Positions 15,362 through 36,400 of a stretch of DNA of 64,000 bases are shown here, one piece after another. Each line of letters starts with the position of its first letter. The first letter of the stretch is position 1. Location: positions 1 through 64,000 of the forward strand of contig ML976985.1 of assembly GCA_010015675.1 (NCBI GenBank), given 5' to 3'. Under the pieces are notes generated by a model. The model saw nothing but the letters and a program-made list of their open reading frames with translations, made no database searches and was not told where the DNA came from. The position numbers and the translations under genes are program-made. The DNA is from Byssothecium circinans. Lineage: Eukaryota > Ascomycota > Dothideomycetes > Pleosporales > Massarinaceae.

Positions 15362-15727
15362 TGTGCGCACTCTCTGAAGCCGCTTCGTATTTGATTGCTA
15401 CCCAAAACCTTCGGAATGCGCGTCCAGAACGTAACAATCACGGACAAAATTGACGCGCTTTAAGTGTTTCTTCATGGTGGTACAAAATCTCGGAATAGCC
15501 CGCCTCTGAAGCAGGGGTACGCGCCACAGCCATCGCAGGTCCTTTAGGAAGGTTGAAAATGTGCAAAGTGTGTTTGTGTCGTGATGCTGCAGGCCAACGA
15601 TGTGATGTCTGGCGTGGGGCTTAAGGGCACGCTAAGCTGTCAGCAGGCCTGGGATAAACAATCCACAATCCAATCCAAACGCTCTTGTTGGTAAGCCTTA
15701 TTCGCTTACGCACCCACAAATATACCT
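15362..15727. other. Spacer between the membrane-protein gene and the tRNA gene
   Basis: No coding or repeat signal was found. The right end contains a TATATAAA box (15728-15735) about 45 bp before the tRNA. Confidence 0.4.
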
Positions 15728-15735
15728 TATATAAA
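15728..15735 (+). promoter_or_regulatory. TATA-like box upstream of tRNA-Pro
   Basis: TATATAAA lies 45 bp before the tRNA 5' end. It matters here because the internal A box of the tRNA gene is split by an insertion, so upstream TFIIIB binding could help. This is inference from position and sequence only. Confidence 0.4.
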
Positions 15736-15779
15736 TTGATTAAGCCAACGAAAGAGCATAATTCAAACAACAACAGTTC

Positions 15780-15922
15780 GGTCTTGTGGGTAAGTTCGAC
15801 TGATTCATCCAACAGCAGTCAGTAGCTAACATTCCAAAGTCTAGTGGTATGATTCTCGCTTAGGGCCTAGTGTCCATGAGCAACATTGCGAGAGGCCCCG
15901 CGTTCGAATCGCGGCAAGACCC
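15780..15922 (+). tRNA. tRNA-Pro(AGG) with two introns: a 50-nt GT-AG insertion in the D-arm and the standard 37/38 intron
   Basis: The acceptor 5' strand GGTCTTG (15780-15786) pairs 7/7 with CAAGACC (15915-15921), and the discriminator base is C. T8, G9 and G10 (15787-15789) are followed by GTAAGT and a 50-nt insertion (15790-15839) with GCTAAC and a terminal AAG. Removing it gives TGGTCTAGTGGTATGATT, the canonical tRNA-Pro D-arm. The anticodon stem is CTCGC/GCGAG (15855-15859, 15888-15892) with anticodon AGG at 15862-15864. A standard 21-nt intron (15866-15886) follows position 37. The T-arm is CCGCG TTCGAAT CGCGG with a good B box, and a T10 run follows. Every stem is intact, so the gene looks functional if both introns are removed. 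The first intron sits where no nuclear tRNA intron is expected. Confidence 0.93.
15790..15839 (+). other. Spliceosomal-type intron inside the tRNA gene
   Basis: It is 50 nt long with donor GTAAGT, branch site GCTAAC about 10 nt before the acceptor, and acceptor AAG, matching the protein-gene introns of this window. It separates tRNA positions 10 and 11, in the A box. The boundary has a 1-nt ambiguity (G at both ends), and the GT-AG choice is one of the two possibilities. A tRNA splicing endonuclease would need a bulge-helix-bulge or the mature-domain ruler, neither of which fits this site. Confidence 0.8.
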
Positions 15923-15929
15923 ATTCTCC

Positions 15930-15939
15930 TTTTTTTTTT
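15930..15939 (+). terminator. RNA polymerase III terminator
   Basis: A run of ten T starts 8 nt after the tRNA 3' end. It supports Pol III transcription of the interrupted tRNA gene. Confidence 0.85.
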
Positions 15940-16635
15940 CCTCTTCTTTGTTGGCTTTTGTTCTTTCTACTTCTACACTTCTCTTCAGTCGGTACAAATC
16001 ATTCTATATTTAGCAGCATTTTCTCCCACTGAGGAGGCAAACGGGACGATTAGGTAGCCAGAAAACAACCTCTCCTGCCTAAAGTACCATGTAAGGAGCA
16101 TTTGTTGGAGTATAATTGGGAGAGTGTCGACATGAGGCCATGGAGTGGAGATGTCGTAGATGCGCTTGATGCGGGGGATCAAGCTTGCAGCAACAATGAA
16201 AACCCGGACGTGAGAAAAGGTGAGAAGGCCGGACGGTTCTGTGACTTGTGCGTGCGAGGTGAAGGAAAGAGAGTGGAAGTGTGTTGCATAATGGTAAATG
16301 GAAATTCGCGGTACTGGCTTCGGAACTCACGGGTGAGATGGCGATAGGGCGATAGGGCGGCTCTCGCGTCGCAAGAAAAGTAGGAACTAACGCAGCTACC
16401 TAACATCACTCTCAAGACAGTGAGAGCTCGTCTCCTGAATAGTGTAGTAGATGCTGTATCGCCCTTATACAGGTTTTACAGTATCTACAGCAAGAGATAG
16501 TACTTACTTCCTAACCCGTCAGCATCGTGACTCAAATCCAGGCTGCAGCCGGAGCAAGGACCGCCCTTCTCGCATGGCTGTTTCAGCAATGAGAACGGTG
16601 AGAGCACTTGTTCAATTGCTATGGCACCACCTTTT
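15940..16635. other. Spacer between the tRNA and gene A
   Basis: No supported gene was found. Short open frames on both strands lack protein-like signatures. This is a candidate left boundary of the accessory block. Confidence 0.4.
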
Positions 16636-33432: not shown

Positions 33433-36400
33433 ATGGACGACTTATATGACGAGTATGTACCCCCGTTGCAGTCGTATACAAGCTCGATATTGACTTTTTC
33501 AGGTTCGGTAATTTTATCGGCGAAGCCGAGAGCGACGACGATGTCCAGTCCACCGGCGACGCAGCGGACGCCTACGTGCTCGACGATGAGGCTGAGGAAG
33601 AGGAGGCACACGACCAACAGCTCATGGAAGTGGATGAGGGGCCCTCGAATGCTGTGATCCTACACGAAGACAAGCAATACTACCCCTCCGCGTCCGACGT
33701 GTACGGTCCCGATGTCGAGGTGCTGGTGGAAGAGGAGGACGCGCAGGAGCTGTCGAAACCCATAATTGAGCCCGTTGTACAGAAGAAGTTCACCATTTCA
33801 GAGTCGGATCTGCCGCCCGTACACTTCTCGCGCCAGCTTATGACGGATCTGATGAACTACCCCAACCAAATACGAAATGTCGCAATTGCAGGCCATCTGC
33901 ATCACGGAAAGACAGCGTTCATGGATATGCTGGTGATGGAGACACATGATATCCAGCATCGTCTAGATTCCAAGAGGGGGAAGAAGCGCGAAGAGCAGCT
34001 ACGATATACGGACGTGCACACGGTCGAGCGCGAACGAGGGCTTTCGATAAAGGCAGCACCCATGACTCTAGTCCTGCAGAACACATCACAGAAGTCGCAC
34101 CTAATAAACATTATCGATACACCTGGGCATGTCAATTTTGCTGATGAGGTAGCCGCATCGTTGCGGTTGGTTGACGGGGTGGTGCTGGTAGTGGACGTAG
34201 TCGAGGGCGTGCAGATCACTACGGAGCTAGCCATCAAACATGCAATCTTGGAAGACCTTCCCCTGACGCTGGTCATCAACAAGATGGACCGTCTGATCCT
34301 CGAACTCAAGCTTCCACCGCGCGATGCCTATTTCAAGATAAAGCACGTAATCGAAGAGGTCAACACGGTTATCGAGAACACCATCCCGGGCAAGGGCGAG
34401 AGACGGCGTGTAAGCCCTGAAAAAGGCAACGTCGCTTTTGCTTGTACGAGCATGAGATGGTGCTTCACTCTGCAGTCCTTCGCAAAGATGTACGCCGAGT
34501 TTTACCCTGGACCTGCAAAAGCGCCCGGTTTTGGAAAGCCGACGAAGAACTTTGACGTCGACAAATTCGCTGTCCGTTTGTGGGGAGACATCTTCTACAA
34601 TCCGTCGAGCCGCAAATTCAGCCGCAAAGGACAGGAAGAGGCGTCCCAGCGGTCCTTCGTGCACTGGATTCTGGAGCCCATTTACAAGCTCTATGCGCAC
34701 ACGCTCAGCGAGAGTGCCGAAGATTTGAAGGATACGCTTGACCAGCTGGGTATCCGCCTCAAGCCTTCAGAGTACAAGACGGATGCCAAGGAACTGATGA
34801 GGCTTGTTTGCCAGCAATATTTTGGTCCCTCGACCGGCTTTGTGGACATGCTGGTCCAGCACGTGCCATCGCCAATCGACGGTGCCAAGAGGCTGCTCGA
34901 GAAGCACTACACTGGACCCTTGGACAGCAAGACTGCCGAGTCTATGGGGAAGTGCGACCAGGACGGGCCGTTGGTCGTACATGTTACGAAGCTCTTCAAT
35001 ACATCAGACGCCAAGTCATTCCACTGCTTAGGGCGAGTGCTGAGTGGTGTCGCCAAAGCCGGTACCTCAGTGCGGGTACTCGGTGAAGGCTATACGATCG
35101 AAGATGAAGAAGACATGGTGGTTGCAACAGTAGCAGACACATGGATCGCCGAATCAAGGTACAACGTTTGGACAAGCGGTGTACCAGCAGGAAATTGGGT
35201 TTTGCTCGGTGGCGTTGACAACTCTATTGTCAAGACCGCCACCATCGTAGCTCATAAGTTGCCGGACGATGAAGACGCATACATCTTCCGTCCGATCCGT
35301 CACTTCTTCGAGTCCGTCTTCAAGGTTGCGGTCGAGCCTATCAATCCCTCCGAACTCCCCAAGATGCTTGACGGACTCCGCAAGATCAACAAGTCGTATC
35401 CCCTCATCACCACCAAAGTCGAAGAGTCGGGCGAACACGTTATTCTTGGCACTGGTGAGCTGTACATGGACTGCGTGCTGCATGATCTCCGACGATTATA
35501 CGCAGATATGGAGATCAAGATTTCAGATCCTGTAACCCGCTTCTGTGAGACAGTCGAGGAGATGTCCGCCATCAAGTGCTACGCTCTCACACCCAACAAG
35601 AAGAACAAGATTACAATGGTTGCAGAACAGCTTGAGTCGGGTATTGCGGAAGACATTGAGTCTAATAGAGTCAACATCAAGGACCCTGTCCGTGTAGTGG
35701 GCAAGTTCTTCGAGGAGAACTACGGCTACGATCTCCTTGCCTCGCGAAACATATGGGCATTCGGTCCCGACGAAATGGGCCCAAACATCCTGCAAAATGA
35801 CACACTCCCCTCGGAAGTCGACACGAAAACTCTGCGCTCCGTTCGGGACACTATCCGTCAAGGATTCAGCTGGGCAACGCGCGAAGGACCGCTCTGCGAA
35901 GAGCCCATCCGCAATACCAAGTTCCGAATCACTGATGTGGAGCTTGCATCCGAAGCTATATTCCGCGGCGGCGGCCAGATCATTCCTACCAGCCGGCGAG
36001 CGTGCTACTCCAGTTTCCTGATGGCGAGTCCCCGGTTAATGGAGCCCGTTTACAGTTGCCGTATGATTGGGCCCGCCGACACGAAGGGCAGTCTATATAC
36101 GGTCCTTTCGAAGCGCCGCGGTCACGTCCTCTCCGATGAATCCATCGCCGGTACCCCTCTCTACAACGTCCACGGTCTCATCCCTGTCATTGACTCCTTT
36201 GGTTTCGAGACCGATCTGAGGGTACGTATATCCTTTTACAAAACGCATTCCTAAACATAAGATGATGTACTAACTTCAAAGTAGATCCATACACAAGGTC
36301 AGGTTTCGCTCTCGCTCGCCTTCGAGAAATGGCAGATCGTGCCCGGTGATCCGCTCGACAAGGAGATCAAATTGCGCCCGCTTGAACCAGCTGATGCGCG

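Follow-up and report, generated by a model that had tools for sequence, protein, structure and literature searches.

U2-type spliceosomal introns probably occupy a large minority of the nuclear tRNA genes of Byssothecium circinans (Pleosporales), including the tRNA-Pro(AGG) gene of the window, which is the analysed stretch of 64,000 nucleotides on contig C9 of the assembly (48.4 Mb, 109 contigs). The inserts, their splice signals, the restored cloverleaves, the conserved exons and the downstream T runs are present in the DNA. The probability that spliceosomal removal of the inserts yields working tRNAs, whichever polymerase makes the precursor, was estimated to be about 0.85. With good but lower confidence, the spliceosome is proposed to be an obligatory tRNA maturation enzyme, needed by about one third of the tRNA genes seen (19 interrupted vs 34 uninterrupted) and by all tRNA-Lys and tRNA-Asn genes found, the B box being taken over by those introns that cut this promoter element. 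If true, these genes would be useless without the spliceosome and translation would depend directly on the machinery of pre-mRNA splicing and on its action upon Pol III transcripts.

The following features were assigned to the tRNA-Pro(AGG) gene of the window:

15728-15736, plus strand: TATA-like element TATATAAAT, 7/7 to TATATAA; the mature 5' end lies 52 nt downstream
15780-15922, plus strand: whole tRNA-Pro(AGG) gene (sequence reading)
15780-15789, plus strand: exon 1 GGTCTTGTGG, tRNA positions 1-10 (ARAGORN after excision)
15790-15839, plus strand: 50-nt spliceosomal-type intron between tRNA positions 10 and 11, missing from the paralogue on contig C28; its excision gives a cloverleaf
15790-15795, plus strand: 5' splice site GTAAGT of the 50-nt intron (motif scoring)
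15826-15830, plus strand: CTAAC branch site; its A at 15829, 10 nt from the 3' end of the intron, is the presumed branch point
15837-15839, plus strand: 3' splice site AAG of the 50-nt intron (motif scoring)
15840-15865, plus strand: second exon piece, tRNA positions 11-37 (rest of the D arm, 5' half of the anticodon arm, anticodon AGG)
15866-15886, plus strand: ordinary 37/38 tRNA intron, 21 nt (ARAGORN on the excised sequence), 19/21 identical with the C28 paralogue
15887-15922, plus strand: third exon piece, tRNA positions 38-73 (ARAGORN after excision)
15930-15939, plus strand: T10 run, probable RNA polymerase III terminator

The sequence-only reading of this locus had described a tRNA-Pro(AGG) with a standard 37/38 intron and a T10 run, and both are as claimed, ARAGORN finding the tRNA and the 21-nt intron post-excision. 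The letters at 15790-15839 also agree with the reported 50-nt insert between positions 10 and 11 carrying GTAAGT, GCTAAC and AG. That removal of the insert gives a proper tRNA was confirmed: tRNA-Pro(agg) was called by ARAGORN once exactly those 50 nt were cut, and a full cloverleaf, the anticodon AGG and a Pol III-type terminator were then all present. No tRNA was detected by ARAGORN in the unexcised 15780-15922 (in bacterial mode, and on the locus also with the standard code allowing introns of up to 300 nt), nor by Rfam at the gathering threshold on the unexcised locus or at E ≤ 1 on 15600-16100. The insert junction may shift by one base, as the insert ends with G and exon base 10 is G; GT...AG ends are obtained only in the placement of the first reading.

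In a motif-blind excision scan (20-140 nt) at this gene, four excisions restored a good cloverleaf and the one with full splice signals was 15790-15839. The control scan of the whole window on both strands covered 364 T-arm-like sites and 3588 excisions carrying GT/GC, AG and CTRAY, resulting in a single match, tRNA-Pro(AGG). The 50-nt insert is single copy in the genome at ≤3 mismatches. Its AAG end is an exception among the 20 inserts described below, the other 19 of which end with YAG.

To this gene 18 more tRNA genes with like inserts at various tRNA positions can be added, which supports the earlier view of a spliceosomal-type intron in a tRNA gene. The tRNA loci were gathered from Rfam matches to tRNA, from a pattern of B box and T run and from searches with spliced sequences, by script and partly by eye; 63 of the 1497 Rfam candidates were scored and the B-box pattern matches were listed through contig C40. 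Among the matches listed, at least 19 tRNA genes carry 20 inserts of 48-64 nt outside the anticodon loop, situated in the acceptor stem, D arm, variable arm or T arm. A separate 37/38 intron was found in 14 of the 19 genes. At least 34 distinct uninterrupted cloverleaf loci passed the same scorer, with pseudogene-like, unresolved and low-scoring loci left out of this number. An assembly or sequencing artefact at the window locus has a negligible probability, considering the twenty inserts with precise splice signals across many contigs. The interrupted genes and their insert sites are:

Pro-AGG (window): after nt 10
Pro-CGG: after nt 3
Thr-CGT: after nt 3
Arg-ACG: after nt 4
Arg-CCT: D loop
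Arg-CCG: D loop
Ala-CGC: D loop
Val-CAC: D loop
Thr-AGT: D loop
Arg-TCT: two inserts, in the D loop and after the D stem
Ser-GCT: variable arm
Asn-GTT, two genes: T stem
Lys-CTT, two genes (a, b): T stem
His-GTG: T stem
Thr-TGT: T stem
Lys-CTT-c (third Lys-CTT): T loop
Lys-TTT: T loop

In the case of tRNA-Arg(TCT) (L101, C18:86500-87200), two spliceosomal-type introns and a 37/38 intron are present in one gene, so that a single tRNA would be joined from four pieces.

The cloverleaf was restored by excision in 19/19 interrupted genes with either ARAGORN or a custom cloverleaf scorer. In the first set, a tRNA was called by ARAGORN post-excision in 15/15 genes, with the expected isotype in 13/15 (Pro-CGG and Arg-TCT were called as Phe and SeC, respectively). 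The restored cloverleaves of Arg-TCT, Asn-b, Lys-c and Thr-AGT were determined with the custom scorer, and the restored tRNA of Lys-TTT was determined with ARAGORN, the custom scorer returning nothing. Of the 19 unexcised genes, ARAGORN missed 14 altogether and gave 4 a wrong isotype, and for Thr-AGT it called the right isotype but misplaced the intron; when longer introns were allowed, one Lys-CTT gene was called Lys with a single 80-nt intron. GT-AG-interrupted tRNA genes are thus missed or misread by tRNA finders.

No plain cloverleaf was seen at 67 loci, and the motif-blind scan, with excisions of 20-140 nt, was extended to 48 of them. A rescuing excision was found in 14 of the 48. In 12 of the 14 it was situated outside the anticodon-loop intron, and exactly one rescuing solution per locus had full splice signals. 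The rescuing excisions of L032 and L102 had no splice signals, were both inside the anticodon-loop intron and were not counted. The 19 loci left out were eight repeats of the same places (L005, L010, L043, L074, L076, L081, L089, L090), the U6/rRNA loci L041, L042 and L062, the chance pattern matches L004, L006 and L008, and the weak tRNA-like loci L039, L049, L053, L055 and L060. Some cases may have been missed, since the scan was restricted to the sequence upstream of TTCRA T loops close to the centre of each locus, with about 200 s per locus. Three interrupted genes (L054, L072, L101) failed the motif-blind scan and were added by reading; L116, L117 and L118 came from the spliced-sequence search and L119 from a separate search.

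Several other loci were observed during the survey. Four dispersed tRNA-like loci of about 81 nt (L048, L049, L053 and L055 at C22:601128, C18:721612, C13:318886 and C2:1722567, respectively) are mutually alike (GGTGGGATGGCTYAGT...) and may be a tRNA-derived SINE or a mobile pseudogene family; three more Rfam matches of about 81 nt are situated at C20:654169, C20:597918 and C44:42821. The B-box loci L069, L099 and L107 (C2, C17 and C25), in which no tRNA was called, have a common AAGGGCTGCCG word and T runs, and possibly represent another Pol III RNA or SINE family. L070 (C4:184026) and L102 (C18:252286) are Trp-like with an unusual anticodon region, ARAGORN calling one of them Gly(tcc) and the other Trp(cca). 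L115 (C40:94000-94700, minus strand) is a possible tRNA gene with the acceptor arms GGGCACA/TGTGCCC about 200 bases apart, from which one or two excisions gave no tRNA. L062 (C62:1580-1733) is a strongly A+T-shifted 5.8S rRNA copy, the shift of which looks like a product of RIP, and the ribosomal locus found in the assembly looks heavily mutated.

All 20 inserts have GT/GC...AG ends and a CTNAY motif with its A at 9-12 nt from the 3' end (19 computed, Lys-TTT by eye). The donors are GTAAGT in 8/20, other GT sequences in 10/20 (GTAAGC, GTTAGT, GTAGGT, GTATGT, GTACGT, GTGAGC) and GC in 2/20 (GCAAGT, GCACGT). Strict CTRAY was detected in 18/19 inserts, Arg-ACG having CTCAT, and the Lys-TTT insert has CTGAC with its A 12 nt from the end (by eye). 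Among shuffled inserts, 7/380,000 passed the same signal test, which was written after the inserts had been seen. In size and signals the tRNA inserts resemble 12 protein-gene intron candidates of the window, as had been claimed earlier for the signals. These candidates of 43-79 nt were picked by reading frame with no branch filter and have reading-frame evidence only; 8/12 hold a CTNAY whose A is 9-13 nt before the end, and in the other four no CTNAY is so placed. In the Snu114 gene, the short first intron, as defined by the protein, reads GTATGT...TTGAC...CAG (by eye). Snu114, the core U5 snRNP GTPase of the spliceosome, is encoded at 33450-36254 of the window; its frame matches a B. circinans protein with 100% identity across 97% of the query, and the next matches are from Massarina and Periconia. 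In the available part of a Fusarium survey, the introns resemble the tRNA inserts in size and signals and CTCAT is listed as a branch variant (PMC5677156).

The inserts could also be ectopic tRNA introns cut by the tRNA splicing endonuclease, as in Cyanidioschyzon and archaea, the GT-AG look being coincidental. Ectopic introns of the D, T, variable and acceptor regions are described for archaea and partly for C. merolae and nucleomorphs in the accessible sections of PMC3978253 and PMC4090602, and many ectopic introns of Guillardia theta have no defined bulge-helix-bulge (PMC3978253, accessible sections). This explanation is nevertheless very improbable, as the GT/GC...CTNAY...AG signals present in 20/20 inserts are so rare in shuffled sequences. 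In addition, with the strict bulge-helix-bulge (two 3-nt bulges, 4-bp helix), 0/19 inserts reached 7/7 pairs at any equivalent junction, and identity as bulge-helix-bulge introns was rejected. All 20 inserts are situated elsewhere than position 37/38, the site of tRNA endonuclease introns. An introner origin was rejected as well, due to the single-copy state of the window insert at ≤3 mismatches and the local alignments of 19 inserts with the splice ends removed, in which no pair scored above shuffles.

In the spliceosomal reading the interrupted genes would give working tRNAs. An alternative is that they are dead tRNA genes into which introns were inserted, for example by reverse splicing, while intact copies do the work. 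The sequence-only reading had suggested a check of other tRNA-Pro(AGG) copies. An AGG paralogue without the 50-nt insert is present at C28:152044-152136, and the window gene itself may therefore be dispensable; the idea that it is a dead copy was weakened by the Asn and Lys genes, all of which were found interrupted, and by its differences from the paralogue. The two genes are identical at 66/72 positions, and of the six differences, four make up two compensated base pairs, located in the acceptor and T stems, and the other two are in loops (pairing by eye). Besides these two genes, tRNA-Pro(TGG) was found twice and tRNA-Pro(CGG) once, and the CGG gene is itself interrupted at another site. 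Intact genes were found also for Arg-ACG (L026), Thr-AGT (L013) and His-GTG (L011), which together with Pro-AGG favour the dead-copy explanation. In the parts available of PMC4090602 and PMC3978253, D- and T-arm insertions of eukaryotic tRNA genes are mostly held to be pseudogenes, with nucleomorph and red-algal exceptions, and they occur mostly in one of many synonymous genes (PMC4090602).

In the case of tRNA-Lys and tRNA-Asn, 4/4 and 2/2 genes found, respectively, were interrupted, and no uninterrupted gene was detected among the Rfam, B-box and spliced-sequence matches listed. Intact Lys or Asn genes may have been missed, since the survey scored a part of the Rfam candidates. A search with eight fungal tRNA sequences for missing isoacceptors matched one Gln gene only; this search is insensitive, as its Lys-TTT query missed the Lys-TTT gene found by another route. 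An initiator-Met anticodon-arm word had 0 matches. If the assembly and the survey are complete for Lys and Asn, their introns must be removed, because there is no translation without these tRNAs.

The conservation of the mature parts was compared in six pairs, all of which are reported here, and the lowest values were those of the window gene given above and of Lys-CTT-a vs Lys-CTT-c (66/73, 7 differences). The two tRNA-Asn genes share the intron site and their mature parts are 74/74 identical, whereas their introns match in 36/59 columns (0.61 vs a shuffled mean of 0.54, 95% level 0.60). The mature parts of Lys-CTT a and b are 73/73 identical, with 38/54 matching columns in the spliceosomal introns (0.70 vs a shuffled mean of 0.58, 95% level 0.64) and 30/32 alike in the 37/38 introns. 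The paired Asn and Lys a/b introns thus align somewhat better than shuffles. The interrupted and intact copies of Arg-ACG are 72/72 identical. Those of Thr-AGT are 71/72 identical and differ at the last base, which fits a dead copy. The exon identity could partly reflect gene conversion, provided that the conversion ended at the introns. That the mature parts are identical while the introns have diverged, and that all Lys and Asn genes found are interrupted, points to working tRNAs matured by the spliceosome. Considering also the splice signals kept in 20/20 inserts and the cloverleaf restored in 19/19 genes, the dead-copy explanation is improbable. A search for orthologues with exact exon words gave 0 matches among the contigs of IMG/VR and GTDB, where records of this or very near genomes may be excluded.

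The spliceosome normally works on capped Pol II transcripts, and Pol II read-through transcripts over the tRNA loci are the main alternative source of the precursor, a variant within the spliceosomal explanation rather than opposed to it. TATA-like words (≥5/7) were found 35-55 nt upstream in 14/18 interrupted genes examined and 34-60 nt upstream of 25/34 uninterrupted tRNA genes, both being raw counts with no chance control. In Arg-TCT and one Asn gene the best TATA-like word is further upstream, the other Asn gene has a 4/7 word, and in Thr-AGT 16 nt of upstream sequence were covered. Such words alone cannot tell the polymerases apart. In contrast, a T run (≥5) starts within 40 nt downstream of the 3' end in 18/18 genes examined, which argues for Pol III. 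T-run avoidance inside the inserts was rejected as a proof of Pol III: 0 T5 runs vs 1.04 expected and 3 T4 runs vs 4.2 expected are not significant.

The internal promoters also speak against the Pol II variant. In 16/18 genes the score of the genomic A box is no lower than that of the mature box, the exceptions being the window gene and Arg-CCT (6 vs 7), and the same holds for the B box in 17/18, with the exception of Lys-CTT-c (8 vs 9). The box is completed by the first or last G of the intron in several D-loop and T-stem cases (by eye). In the window gene, the insert was rightly said to split the A box and the donor region to rebuild it in part (TGGGTAAGTTCG, 6/8 vs 7/8 for the mature box); the box is nearly rebuilt also at the acceptor side, where AAG is followed by TCTAGTGG (by eye). 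The B box is cut by the intron in two genes, tRNA-Lys(TTT) and Lys-CTT-c, and both introns hold a B-box-like word: GGTTCGAATCA (9/10, shuffle P 0.001) and AGTTCGAATCA (8/10, shuffle P 0.0245), respectively, with P values uncorrected for the 20 introns tested. The Thr-TGT intron also has a B-box-like word (P 0.001) though its B box needs none, and in the other 17 introns none was detected at P < 0.05. The two tRNA-Lys introns, in L119 (C2:1118740-1118940) and L117 (C24:209190-209440), share the T-loop site between TTCG and A and each carry a B-box-like word, as if the promoter element had been moved into the intron. Moreover, in fission yeast the U6 RNA is made by Pol III and has an mRNA-type intron that is spliced, according to the available text of PMC10484740. 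Read-through by Pol II is unlikely, although rated somewhat above the other alternatives.

From the sequence we infer Pol III transcription, spliceosomal removal, the order of the steps and the function of the mature tRNAs, and the simplest account is as follows. The whole interrupted gene, with the TATA-like word upstream and the T run downstream, would be transcribed by RNA polymerase III. The spliceosome would recognise GTAAGT, the CTAAC branch site and AG and remove the intron of 48-64 nt, allowing the tRNA to fold. The separate 37/38 intron, where present, would then be removed by the tRNA splicing endonuclease and the ends would be trimmed by RNase P and tRNase Z. GT-AG introns in the only copies found of essential tRNAs would, if true, overturn the separation of two splicing systems and demonstrate a large-scale action of the spliceosome on transcripts of Pol III. 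It would also become possible to test intron gain and its limits in genes with nearly every base structurally constrained.

Canonical 37/38 tRNA introns are removed by the Sen endonuclease. They are present in addition to the inserts in 14/19 interrupted genes of B. circinans, but at another position than the inserts and with no splice-site consensus. Fungal introner elements would be a route to gaining many spliceosomal introns. They are near-identical copies, whereas among 19 inserts of B. circinans no two exceed shuffles in similarity and that of the window is unique in the genome. Spliceosomal introns occur also in the nuclear rDNA of some ascomycetes. These are likewise mRNA-type introns in a fungal non-coding RNA gene, but in genes transcribed by Pol I; one such 18S case stands among the references in the available part of PMC11782384.

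According to the accessible text of a review, tRNA splicing is independent of the spliceosome (PMC13149111). Breaks outside 37/38, in the D, T, variable and acceptor regions and sometimes several per gene, are found as in B. circinans also in C. merolae, cryptophyte nucleomorphs and crenarchaea, as far as the available sections of PMC3978253 and PMC4090602 describe them. The ectopic introns of C. merolae and archaea are tied there to the bulge-helix-bulge and the tRNA endonuclease, whereas the inserts of B. circinans have no strict bulge-helix-bulge. The introns of the Guillardia theta nucleomorph have a length of 3-24 nt in the same sources, in contrast to the inserts of 48-64 nt with GT/GC-AG ends and a branch motif (PMC3978253, PMC4090602).

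One of the closest known systems is the U6 snRNA gene. The U6 gene found in B. circinans has no intron; at C14:277621-277936 (L041/L042) an intact U6 is followed after about 150 bases by a truncated U6 copy in inverted orientation on the opposite strand, and a U6 intron in this species was rejected. Introns of mRNA type occur in U6 of fission yeast and of other fungi, and their insertion has been ascribed to reverse splicing. The S. pombe U6 gene likewise has a spliceosomal intron in a Pol III-transcribed non-coding RNA gene (PMC10484740, available part). However, the host RNA in that case is a part of the spliceosome, whereas in B. circinans a large number of tRNA genes serve as hosts and the introns occupy many different sites. 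No published report of spliceosomal introns in tRNA genes was found in a literature search of mostly open-access texts, partly as excerpts and with preprints outside its scope. A spliceosomal intron in a Pol III gene was already known from U6, but the spread of such introns over tRNA genes is, as far as this search reached, new here.
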